DNA of 64,000 bases from NCBI RefSeq assembly GCF_006539525.1, contig NZ_BJNE01000008.1, positions 62,001 through 126,000 of the forward strand. The letters run 5' to 3'. Within the stretch, counting starts at the first letter, position 1. Each line of letters opens with the position of its first letter. Below, one piece after another: positions 6,462-53,476 of this stretch. Below the pieces are notes generated by a model, which ran no database searches, was not told the origin of the DNA, and saw nothing but the letters and a program-made list of their open reading frames with translations. The DNA comes from Glutamicibacter nicotianae. Lineage in GTDB: Bacteria; Actinomycetota; Actinomycetes; Actinomycetales; Micrococcaceae. A program made the position numbers and the translations under genes.

Positions 6462-6534
<73 letters not shown>

Positions 6535-6546
6535 CAAAAGAAAGTG

Positions 6547-6629: not shown

Positions 6630-6702
<73 letters not shown>

Positions 6703-6710
6703 CATTTGCC

Positions 6711-11881: not shown

Positions 11882-11924
11882 TTCGAAAAACGACGAACCG
11901 TTTATCCACACTGCTTATCCACAC

Positions 11925-11946
11925 TGTTAATAACTTACAAGCATGT
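11925..11946 (+). repeat. 22-bp direct repeat, copy 1
   Basis: It begins TGTTAATAACTTACAAGC and ends ATGT, and is identical to 12191-12212. Both copies are preceded by a CCACA element. It lies within the DnaA-box cluster. Confidence 0.9.
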
Positions 11947-12190
11947 AACTCTCTGCGCATAAAGGTTATTAACACCTCTGCTCCCCCTTGATATCAAGGG
12001 TATTCGCCTTCAAGCACGCAATACTCACAGCTTTGTCCCCAACTGTGGATAACTTTTAAACAACCCCTGTAGATAGTGCATATACGAACCCCAAGTCTGT
12101 TAATAACTTTGGGTTCGAAAGTTTAAACGAATCTGGCAAATCGCGGCGCAAATGGCGAACCCAAGCCTTATCCACAATGGAAATCCACAG

Positions 12191-12212
12191 TGTTAATAAC
12201 TTACAAGCATGT
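12191..12212 (+). repeat. 22-bp direct repeat, copy 2
   Basis: Exact second copy of 11925-11946, 266 nt further on. A shorter relative (TGTTAATAACTT) lies at 12098-12109. Confidence 0.9.
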
Positions 12213-12362
12213 GATTTCACGCCCTGGAAGCGCACTTGACTTGGTAGCCTTGAAGAAATCCACTCAGTATCCCCCATTTTTCCCCAGCTGTGGATAACTT
12301 TGTGAACAACTGTTCATTAAAGTTGTGCACAAAGACTGTGGATAAAAGTTCTAGCCTGTGGA

Positions 12363-12980
12363 TTACTTGGTGAAGACTGGAAGGATCAGCATGCTCGCGA
12401 AGATGAGCATGACGAAACCGATGGCTATATCCAGTACTTGCCACGCTTTCGGCTTTGCGAAGAGCGGGGCCAGGAACCGCGCGCCATAGGCGAGTGCGAA
12501 GAACCAGGTAAAGCTGGCAAGGATGGCACCAATGGCGAAGTGAGGTGCGCCCGCGGCTTGGGAAGTGGCCATTGACCCCAGAAGCAGAACCGTATCGATA
12601 TACACATGCGGGTTCAGCCAGGTGAGGGCCAAAGTCGTCCCGACGATTGAAGCGACCGATGTTGCGCCAGGCAGTGCAGAGACCTTCAGCGCTTCGGGCT
12701 TCAACGCCCGGCGGAAAGCGAAAATCGCGTAGCTTGCCAAGAAGATGAAACCGCCAATTCGCGCAATCATCAATAGCCAAGGCGCTCGCTCGACCAGTGC
12801 TCCCATGCCACTGGCGCCGGCGGCAATCAATACTGCGTCTGACAACGAACACACCAGCGCAGTGATGAAAACATGTTCTTTCCGTATTCCTTGGCGCAAG
12901 ACGAAAGCGTTTTGCGCACCAATGGCGATGATGAGGGACAAGCCCGTGGTGAAGCCGAAGAACAAGGGTCCAGAGAACAT
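12363..12980 (-). CDS. lysE: LysE/ArgO family basic amino acid exporter
   Basis: Inner membrane exporter of 205 residues with six hydrophobic segments and the LysE signature GLSLIIAIGAQNAFVLRQG at residues 12-30, followed by CSLSDAVLIAAG and TWLNPHVYIDT. Family members export lysine and/or arginine. It is divergent from a LysG/ArgP-type regulator 70 nt away, the classic lysE-lysG arrangement in which the regulator activates export when basic amino acids are high. The stop codon abuts the DnaA-box cluster. Confidence 0.93.
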   Translation of the reverse strand: MFSGPLFFGFTTGLSLIIAIGAQNAFVLRQGIRKEHVFITALVCSLSDAVLIAAGASGMGALVERAPWLLMIARIGGFIFLASYAIFAFRRALKPEALKVSALPGATSVASIVGTTLALTWLNPHVYIDTVLLLGSMATSQAAGAPHFAIGAILASFTWFFALAYGARFLAPLFAKPKAWQVLDIAIGFVMLIFASMLILPVFTK

Positions 12981-13935: not shown

Positions 13936-13960
13936 GGTGGTCACCAGCAATAACTGCTTG

Positions 13961-14003
13961 GACCCGGACGAGGGAGCCGTACCCGGAACGCGACAAGACG
14001 GCC
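13961..14003 (+). ncRNA. Guanidine-III riboswitch (ykkC-III) upstream of sugE
   Basis: The RNA matches the guanidine-III consensus: CCGGACGAGG at 13964-13973, GCCGTACCCGG at 13976-13986, and GACAAGACGGC at 13992-14002. CCGG pairs with the second CCGG, and GCCGT (13976-13980) pairs with ACGGC (13998-14002) as the pseudoknot. It is 15 nt before the sugE ATG and excludes any start codon further upstream. A GCCAGA/TCTGGC hairpin (14001-14017) overlaps the 3' strand and may be the expression platform. Confidence 0.9.
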
Positions 14004-14017
14004 AGAAAGTATCTGGC

Positions 14018-14397: not shown

Positions 14398-14655
14398 CTA
14401 TTTCCAGCCTGTTGTCATGAAGAATCCGACCATGGCGATTCCGAAGCCGACGACGATGTTCCATCCGCCGATATTCGGAATCGGGTACAGGGTCTGCGAA
14501 ACGTAATAAACGATGATCCACAGCAGGCCCAGAAGCATCAGTCCGAACATGACTGGCTTGTACCAGCCCGGCATCGGCTTATCGATGGCATGGGAGTTCT
14601 GGCGCGTCTCCTGCGGCTGTGAATTCTTCTTGCGTCGTGGCTTTGACTCCGGCAC
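14398..14655 (-). CDS. crgA: Cell division protein CrgA
   Basis: Septum-associated membrane protein that interacts with FtsZ/FtsI/PBPs in actinobacteria. The 85 residues consist of a basic, hydrophilic N-terminus (RRKKN), then PMPGWYKPVMFG leading into helix 1 and IPNIGGWNIVVGFG leading into helix 2, ending in GWK, the family hallmarks. It is divergent from the sortase gene and close to the PASTA kinase operon, the conserved location. Confidence 0.95.
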   Translation of the reverse strand: MPESKPRRKKNSQPQETRQNSHAIDKPMPGWYKPVMFGLMLLGLLWIIVYYVSQTLYPIPNIGGWNIVVGFGIAMVGFFMTTGWK

Positions 14656-52571: not shown

Positions 52572-53358
52572 GGTTCAGTTCCTCGTGCTTCAAAGTCTTA
52601 AGTTCTTCTGGATCGGTTGCGGACAGCGCATCAATGAATGCGACGGCGAAGCTGCCCGGACCTGTGCTGTTCTCCAGGGCCTTTTCAGCGGCCAGCCCGT
52701 AGAAGCCGTGGGCCGCGATGGCGGCCTCGAACGGGTCATCGTGGACCGCAATCATGCCGGCGCAGAACGCGCCCAACGCGCAGCCGCCGCCGGTGATCCG
52801 CGTCAAGCCGATGCCGTTGGTGTGCACCAGGACTGTCCGCGTGGCATCGATGATGGCATCGGACTGGCCGGAAATGGCCACCACGCAGTCATGCTGCTGG
52901 GCCAGATCGCGTCCAGCCGCCAAGGCGGCAGAGACGTCATCCAAGGCATCGACACCGCGTGAAGCCGATTGCCGTCCGGCCAGTGCCAGGATTTCCGAGG
53001 CGTTGCCGCGAATCAGGGCCGGGCGTTGGGTGGCAATGCGCCGCGCAAAATCCGTGCGCACCGGCAGGGCGCCGACCGCTACCGGATCAAGGATCCACGG
53101 GGTGCCTGCTGCGCTCGCCGATTGCACGGCTTCTTCCATGGCGGCCAGCTGCTCGGTGCTTGGAGTTCCCAGATTCACCAAGACGGCGGAAGCCGCCTTT
53201 GCGAAGGGGCCGGCCTCTCCGGGCAGATCCGTCATGGCCGGGGACGCGCCGGATGCCAGCAGGACATTGGCGGTGAAATTTGCTACGACGGTGTTGGTCA
53301 GGCAGAAAACCAAAGGTGATTGTTGCCGGTATTCTTGGGCAACTGCATGCAAAGCCAT
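52564..53358 (-). CDS. thiM: Hydroxyethylthiazole kinase
   Basis: Kinase of 264 residues that salvages the thiazole moiety of thiamine. It has PLVFCLTNTVVANFTANVLLA near the start, GASPAMTD, and the anion-hole/catalytic Cys in TGGGCALGAFCAG. It is the first gene after the TPP riboswitch; its ATG lies directly behind the aptamer's GGAGGG, so ligand binding probably hides the ribosome-binding site. Confidence 0.95.
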   Translation of the reverse strand: MALHAVAQEYRQQSPLVFCLTNTVVANFTANVLLASGASPAMTDLPGEAGPFAKAASAVLVNLGTPSTEQLAAMEEAVQSASAAGTPWILDPVAVGALPVRTDFARRIATQRPALIRGNASEILALAGRQSASRGVDALDDVSAALAAGRDLAQQHDCVVAISGQSDAIIDATRTVLVHTNGIGLTRITGGGCALGAFCAGMIAVHDDPFEAAIAAHGFYGLAAEKALENSTGPGSFAVAFIDALSATDPEELKTLKHEELNHA

Positions 53359-53361
53359 GCG

Positions 53362-53440
53362 ACATCCCTCCGCTAGCGTGAACTAGATCAGGTTCAACGG
53401 GTCTCATCTCAGTCGGTTGTTCCGACACCCCGTGTCACTG
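53362..53440 (-). ncRNA. TPP riboswitch (THI element)
   Basis: Read on the minus strand: ACACGGGGTGTCGG, CTGAGATGAGACCC, TTGAACCTGATC, GTTCACGCTAGCGGAGGGA. These are the conserved P2/J, CUGAGA and P4/P5 elements of the thiamine pyrophosphate aptamer. GGAGGG at the 3' end is also the Shine-Dalgarno of thiM, so translational control is likely. Confidence 0.95.
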
Positions 53441-53476
53441 CCATAGAGCGTACGCACAAGCGGTTCCAAGGACAAG

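Follow-up and report, generated by a model that had tools for sequence, protein, structure and literature searches.

Introduction

To our knowledge, loci that control DnaA (datA, DARS, and DnaA-box clusters [DBCs]) are known mainly from Escherichia coli and Bacillus subtilis. In the actinobacteria, Streptomyces coelicolor possesses a DnaA-box cluster outside oriC, which is thought to tune initiation. The B. subtilis clusters are reportedly called "oriC-proximal" in the title of a 2012 paper by Okumura. Removal of all six DBCs from B. subtilis is described to cause early initiation (PMC5295017). In E. coli, datA is reported as a non-coding site with five DnaA boxes and an IHF site that lowers DnaA activity (PMC4585315, PMC5295017), and DARS2 also carries sites for partner proteins (PMC4585315). 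The boxes of datA surround its IHF site at a critical spacing, and a DARS has a three-box core from which DnaA is released from ADP. As for origins themselves, a published unwinding rule consists of a box, a short spacer, and at least three DnaA-trios (PMC8287927), and bipartite origins are described as two box regions with a spacer gene that extend up to ~2 kb in all (PMC4285127).

An initial annotation of a 64-kb stretch of Glutamicibacter nicotianae DNA (contig C8:62001-126000, hereafter the window) pointed to an origin-like cluster of DnaA boxes away from dnaA-dnaN and offered three readings: a second or relocated origin, a site of DnaA titration or reactivation, and part of a bipartite origin. 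Here, we describe the sites of this cluster, which stand in a rigid order and spacing at a conserved position beside a rhomboid gene, and weigh these readings.

DnaA boxes in the rhomboid-lysE spacer

The cluster lies in a 481-nt spacer (11882..12362; 57% A+T) that extends from the stop of a rhomboid protease gene (PF01694; 10970..11881, + strand) to that of a convergent LysE-type exporter gene (PF01810; 12363..12980, - strand), in a window whose G+C content is 54-69% in 2-kb steps. Because the spacer is bounded by the two stops (11881 and 12363), neither flanking gene starts from it. The spacer contains six perfect TTATCCACA DnaA boxes, three on the + strand (11902, 11915, and 12168) and three on the - strand (12044, 12289, and 12337), and all perfect boxes of the window are confined to this cluster (11902-12345). 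When the window was shuffled 100 times with dinucleotides preserved, the mean number of perfect boxes was 0.21 and the maximum was 3, and 20,000 letter shuffles of the spacer yielded at most one. A DnaA-box cluster in a non-coding region, a feature by which oriC is recognized, is thus present in the spacer. In addition, four TTATTAACA relatives were found at 11925, 11966, 12098, and 12191, where the spacer also has its four GTTAWTAAC sites. Recounting therefore reproduced the six boxes, three per strand, and the four relatives of the initial annotation, and its non-coding, A/T-rich region of about 470 nt also stood. The single near-box that it listed did not, since several are present: TTGTTCACA at 12301, TTGTGCACA at 12323/12324, and TAATCCACA at 12357.

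The whole genome contains 24 perfect boxes versus 6 matches to a reversed control pattern; six of the 24 are in the rhomboid-lysE spacer, two in the dnaA-dnaN gap, and three upstream of dnaB (dnaB and dnaN were named by reading of ORFs). GTTAWTAAC occurs at eight places. Four of them are in the spacer, the dnaA-dnaN gap and the region upstream of dnaB have one each, and two are elsewhere. Since the reversed motif occurs 10 times per strand, the total number of GTTAWTAAC is not raised and only its placement is striking. The ORF read as dnaB is preceded by a second box cluster outside oriC (C8:2183-2625) with three perfect boxes, six one-mismatch boxes, and one GTTATTAAC, and in five other Glutamicibacter genomes, two perfect boxes per genome are found 48-63 kb left of dnaA.

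Several other elements were noted in the window. A guanidine-III riboswitch (13939-14006) overlaps the start of an ORF ending in a SugE-like small multidrug-resistance protein, a TPP riboswitch is located on the minus strand (53348-53442), and tandem tRNA-Ala(TGC) genes (6462-6535 and 6630-6703) follow tRNA-Ile.

Layout of boxes and palindromes

The spacer includes two composite elements whose starts are 266 nt apart. Each consists of two boxes with a start-to-start distance of 13 nt, then GTTAATAAC, and then the palindrome TTACA-N4-TGTAA or a near copy of it. Element 1 (11902..11948, + strand) comprises a perfect box (11902..11910, +; identical in 14 of the 18 aligned genus sequences), 4 nt, another perfect box (11915..11923, +; 17/18), GTTAATAAC (11926..11934; 18/18), and the palindrome TTACAAGCATGTAA (11935..11948), one of the two perfect copies in the genome. 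Element 2 (12168..12214, + strand), a 45-nt repeat 89% identical to element 1, comprises a box that is perfect in the source genome (12168..12176, +; 9/18), a degenerate second box, GTTAATAAC (12192..12200; again identical in all 18), and the palindrome TTACAAGCATGTGA (12201..12214), which is one base off perfect symmetry. At 84 or 63 nt beyond a composite element stands a convergent pair such as TTGTCCCCA-nn-TGTGGATAA. The left halves of the two pairs, TTGTCCCCA (12033..12041, +) and TTTTCCCCA (12278..12286, +), are variable in the genus, and the right halves are perfect boxes on the - strand, identical in 18/18 (12044..12052) and 17/18 (12289..12297) sequences. The remaining sites are a variable GTTATTAAC (11965..11973; 6/18), a conserved non-box motif CTGTAGATA (12067..12075, +; 14/18), a further GTTAATAAC (12099..12107; 13/18), the TTGTTCACA near-box (12301..12309, -; 17/18, the row of genome G007 ending before it), a perfect box (12337..12345, -; 13/18), and the TAATCCACA near-box, which overlaps the lysE stop (12357..12365, -; 10/18).

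The same spacing recurs in related loci. In 105 clusters, 237 ACA-N4-TGT sites were counted, of which 115 are preceded by a box-like match that begins 22 nt ahead of the site and 78 by one that begins 35 nt ahead. TACA-N4-TGT-like sites were present in 102 of the 105 clusters and numbered 285 in 84.0 kb of clusters versus 106 in 2,852 kb of surrounding sequence, an enrichment that describes the clusters but does not test them because the motif was picked after inspection and the loci are related. By count, the perfect palindrome is modestly enriched in the 18 genus genomes (40 sites versus 11 for the reversed pattern). We could place 39 of the 40. Eighteen, one in every genus genome, are located 52-102 nt upstream of a whiB-family gene (PF02467; C9:16820-16833, or L302:1621-1634, in the source genome), and 17 are in the rhomboid-side cluster, one per genome except G007, whose cluster is without a perfect palindrome. 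A further palindrome of G009, also within its cluster, is the 36th at either site. Outside the genus, at least 11 of 25 compared genomes (38 had a whiB match) show the whiB-upstream palindrome. Because of this second position, the same factor may tie the box locus to the targets of the whiB-family gene. BldD, WhiA, and MtrA were weighed by their motifs as candidate binders of the palindrome, and none of the three could be assigned.

Conservation of the cluster beside rhomboid

Absence of the boxes between rhomboid and lysE in close relatives would have spoken against a DnaA locus. Instead, the spacer matched all 18 genus genomes (source included) and 27 of 58 relatives, the matches outside the genus being short pieces. 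The rhomboid gene was found in 76 of 80 Micrococcaceae loci (L217, L241, L244, and L250 did not show it), and a dense cluster, defined here as a weighted box score of at least 8, follows it in all 76, at 23 to 1148 nt after the rhomboid match. Among 36 further loci from 31 other genera of the family, 26 had sequence past rhomboid, and 23 of these 26 scored at least 7; the other three (L155, L177, and L182) have weak cluster versions or almost none. Locus L164 (genus g13) has an inversion of the rhomboid-ppiA-trpG-srt-crgA block with respect to dnaN-gyrA, yet the boxes still follow the 3' end of rhomboid. An apparent reciprocal loss of boxes between the dnaA-dnaN gap and the cluster was dropped after a recount as an artefact of fixed windows: the gap is long in Paeniglutamicibacter, and some Arthrobacter loci carry an additional 1 kb after rhomboid.

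In several other families, a small version of the element is located just past the 3' end of crgA (14401..14655, - strand, in the window). The rhomboid-crgA spacers of five outgroup loci contain box-like sites, most of them next to ACACCGGTGT-like palindromes. A pattern of palindrome half plus box with one mismatch allowed, drawn from outgroup and some family loci (G043 and G100 helped to suggest it), matched 114 sites in 119 genomes versus 17 for the reversed control. Although crgA was found in 118 of the 119 genomes, the comparison covered 116 and omitted the weak crgA fragments of G090 and G103. There were 34 pattern sites within 1.2 kb of crgA in 27 of these 116 genomes against a rough expectation of ~0.07 sites, and 26 of the 27 genomes belong to seven other families. 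The remaining 80 sites are elsewhere, some seemingly just upstream of dnaA as judged by contig position (e.g., G117 and G146). In the few outgroup loci that were read, the rhomboid-side site is small and boxes remain at dnaA-dnaN where measured.

Comparison with the dnaA-dnaN gap

From gene order, dnaA-dnaN had been expected several kb left of the window, and we located dnaA (C8:57691-59067) and dnaN (C8:59558-60682) there, ending 2.9 and 1.3 kb from its left edge. The cluster starts 14.6 kb right of the centre of the dnaA-dnaN gap. A box count at this gap had also been proposed, and it gave the two perfect boxes mentioned above versus six in the spacer. Across the measured loci, the gap keeps boxes with a weighted score of 2 to 13, and 77 of 83 gaps match a loose pattern of box, G-rich spacer, and TTA triplet. 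Among the 45 gap matches listed, box-box-TTATTAACAC is the prevailing order, in many cases with TACTAATCC or TACGAATCC after it, a module that fits the box plus DnaA-trio type of unwinding element. Because dnaA-dnaN keeps an origin-like layout, we regard the rhomboid-side cluster as a second DnaA-box locus.

The weighted box score of the cluster exceeded that of the gap in 96 of 102 Micrococcaceae loci and was equal in 2. By our own scoring of the published box plus trio rule in 79 loci, the cluster scored 5.59 and the gap 5.67 (reversed control, ~2.1), the gap being higher in 40 loci, equal in 9, and lower in 30. The least stable 60 bp was in the gap rather than in the cluster in 66 of these 79 loci. 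Seven parS-like sites, five of them perfect, are located at C8:48145-53895, 4-10 kb left of dnaA, and none were found within the 64-kb window.

Skew around the cluster

A skew minimum at the cluster had been suggested as a further check. Cumulative GC skew was computed over 120-200 kb of sequence surrounding the cluster. Of six Glutamicibacter genomes, five had the minimum 0.3-1.5 kb to the right of the cluster start, and the sixth (G016) had it 6 kb to the left. The keto-skew minimum was 3.7-6.2 kb left of the cluster in all six. The fourfold-site skew of gyrB/gyrA was below zero in 51 of the 54 loci, and the 18 loci from other families were all among these. In the window, pknB and the genes after it run the opposite way. 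With C-rich fourfold sites in gyrB/gyrA and the opposite orientation on the pknB side, gene orientation alone would give a minimum at the cluster. Thus, the minimum was found where the check looked for it in most of these genomes, but it is confounded by gene orientation and codon bias, and we no longer took raw GC skew to prove that the origin has moved. Two loci of genus g12, L163 and L192, have strongly positive gyrB/gyrA fourfold skew (0.35 and 0.39), unlike nearly all other loci.

We also fitted strand-corrected skew, with ORFs called by a simple method, few middle genes available in each genome, and genomes that are related to one another. In all six Glutamicibacter genomes, the fit placed the cluster ahead of the gap, by margins of 0.5 to 4.4 log units, and the best switch was 2.5 to 7.6 kb off the cluster. 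Two g12 genomes gave the reverse preference, with margins of 2.5 and 3.6 log units for the gap, and the fit was near flat in G117 (g10; -0.35) and in G127, the only outgroup (0.02). The corrected differences pointed both ways and were mostly small.

Interpretation of the locus

Judging from sequence comparisons, we consider that the cluster is a non-coding DnaA-binding regulatory locus of the titration or regulation type, separate from oriC and ~15 kb away from it, with a rough probability of 0.55. The best reading appears to be an old, oriC-proximal locus that would work with a partner protein. If dnaA-dnaN is taken as oriC, dense DnaA boxes are indeed present outside but near oriC, as in a DBC. 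The distance of ~15 kb from the usual start site and the recurrence in relatives suggest that the locus probably helps to control replication timing. In the proposed mechanism, DnaA would bind with high affinity to both the tandem and the convergent box pairs, and a partner factor would bind the TTACA-N4-TGTAA palindrome fused to the boxes. Because the locus would be copied soon after oriC fires, its extra sites could soak up, or help to inactivate, DnaA just after initiation and thereby discourage a second start. Several observations count against this account. In 96 of 102 loci, the cluster outscores the presumed oriC in weighted boxes, which is odd for an accessory site, and its box plus trio score is like that of oriC. 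Further points against it are the raw and strand-corrected skew of the six Glutamicibacter genomes, the three loci with weak cluster versions or almost none, and the modest enrichment of the palindrome by count.

Among the three readings of the initial annotation, DnaA titration or reactivation thus fits best. A bipartite origin is unlikely, because 14.6 kb separates the cluster from the dnaA-dnaN gap, far beyond the ~2 kb described for such origins (PMC4285127). A relocated origin is unsupported, because the gap keeps boxes and an unwinding-type module and the skew minimum is confounded. We nevertheless keep a second or relocated origin. In this reading, DnaA would open the tandem-box/GTTAATAAC modules and start forks, and dnaA-dnaN would be a cooperating or an older site. 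The reason is that the cluster, too, scores as box plus DnaA-trio in our version of the published rule; a box followed by CTG TTA ATA would supply the box, short spacer, and three trios that this rule asks for. The higher box score of the cluster, its position within ~1.5 kb of the raw GC-skew minimum in all but one of the six Glutamicibacter genomes, and the preference of the strand-corrected fits in all six point in the same direction. However, the skew signal is mixed with codon bias, the best-fitting switch is off the cluster even in Glutamicibacter, the keto-skew minimum is consistently to its left, and the corrected fit favors the gap in the two g12 genomes and is near flat in G117. The gap has the weaker 60-bp duplex in most loci along with its own box-box-trio module, dnaA-dnaN boxes persist in the few outgroup loci where the rhomboid-side site is small, and a Kocuria rhizophila paper predicts oriC at dnaA-dnaN (PMC12500396). 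On balance, such an origin is rather unlikely, and less likely than a titration or regulatory site. Equally doubtful is a bolder form, in which the rhomboid-side locus would be a working initiation site of Micrococcaceae, alone or alternating with dnaA-dnaN, gated by the whiB-linked palindrome factor. If this were true, either two DnaA origins would lie 15 kb from each other on one bacterial chromosome, or the origin would have departed from dnaA-dnaN.

The locus might instead recharge DnaA with ATP and so promote rather than restrain initiation, as DARS does. Box groups at fixed spacing beside a non-DnaA site are consistent with this idea, given that DARS2 is reported to need Fis and IHF sites (PMC4585315), but a position adjacent to oriC would better suit restraint after initiation, and we consider a DARS-like role improbable. 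The palindrome factor could also be the main player, acting in nucleoid layout, segregation, or division control near the origin, with the DnaA boxes secondary. The near confinement of the palindrome in the genus to the cluster and the whiB site (35 of the 39 placed, plus the additional one in G009) favors this idea, whereas the boxes and GTTAATAAC are the most conserved parts, the G007 cluster does without a perfect palindrome, and the seven parS-like sites are elsewhere; we give it a similarly small chance. Least probable is a transcription-related element of the flanking genes, such as a promoter, terminator, or RNA. Its intergenic position would suit such an element, but the locus lies between two 3' ends, and it gave no match in a sigma-70-type promoter scan, a simple terminator scan, or Rfam at gathering thresholds. 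A locus between two 3' ends that matches no sigma-70-type promoter is hardly a promoter.

Comparison with known DnaA loci

An accessory DnaA locus of this kind would give these actinobacteria an initiation-control site of their own. It would also offer a handle on a partner that may link replication to WhiB-type regulation. In practical terms, origin finders that use box counts and raw GC skew may pick the wrong site in these genomes. A description of the locus was absent among the literature matches listed, in a search whose scope left most subscription papers outside.

The oriC-proximal DBCs of B. subtilis are probably the nearest known counterpart of the rhomboid-side locus, both being DnaA-box groups outside oriC. 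Unlike the DBCs, the Glutamicibacter site, as known from its sequence, packs a rigid module, a palindrome, and GTTAWTAAC sites into one dense locus, and it is found family-wide beside one gene. The E. coli loci may be regarded as cousins in design. DARS1 and DARS2 are likewise non-coding box groups away from oriC, and datA is also non-coding and rich in DnaA boxes; datA needs IHF, whereas the rhomboid-side locus has a different palindrome, rigidly spaced, as its putative partner site. Actinobacterial oriC at dnaA-dnaN resembles the cluster in having boxes on both strands, a relatively A+T-rich sequence, and tandem box pairs with trio-like triplets, but the cluster is 14.6 kb away and the canonical site is present as well. 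The S. coelicolor cluster is similarly an actinobacterial box cluster beyond oriC. The rigid composite of boxes and palindrome, together with conservation anchored to one gene, sets the rhomboid-side locus apart from DBCs, datA, and DARS.
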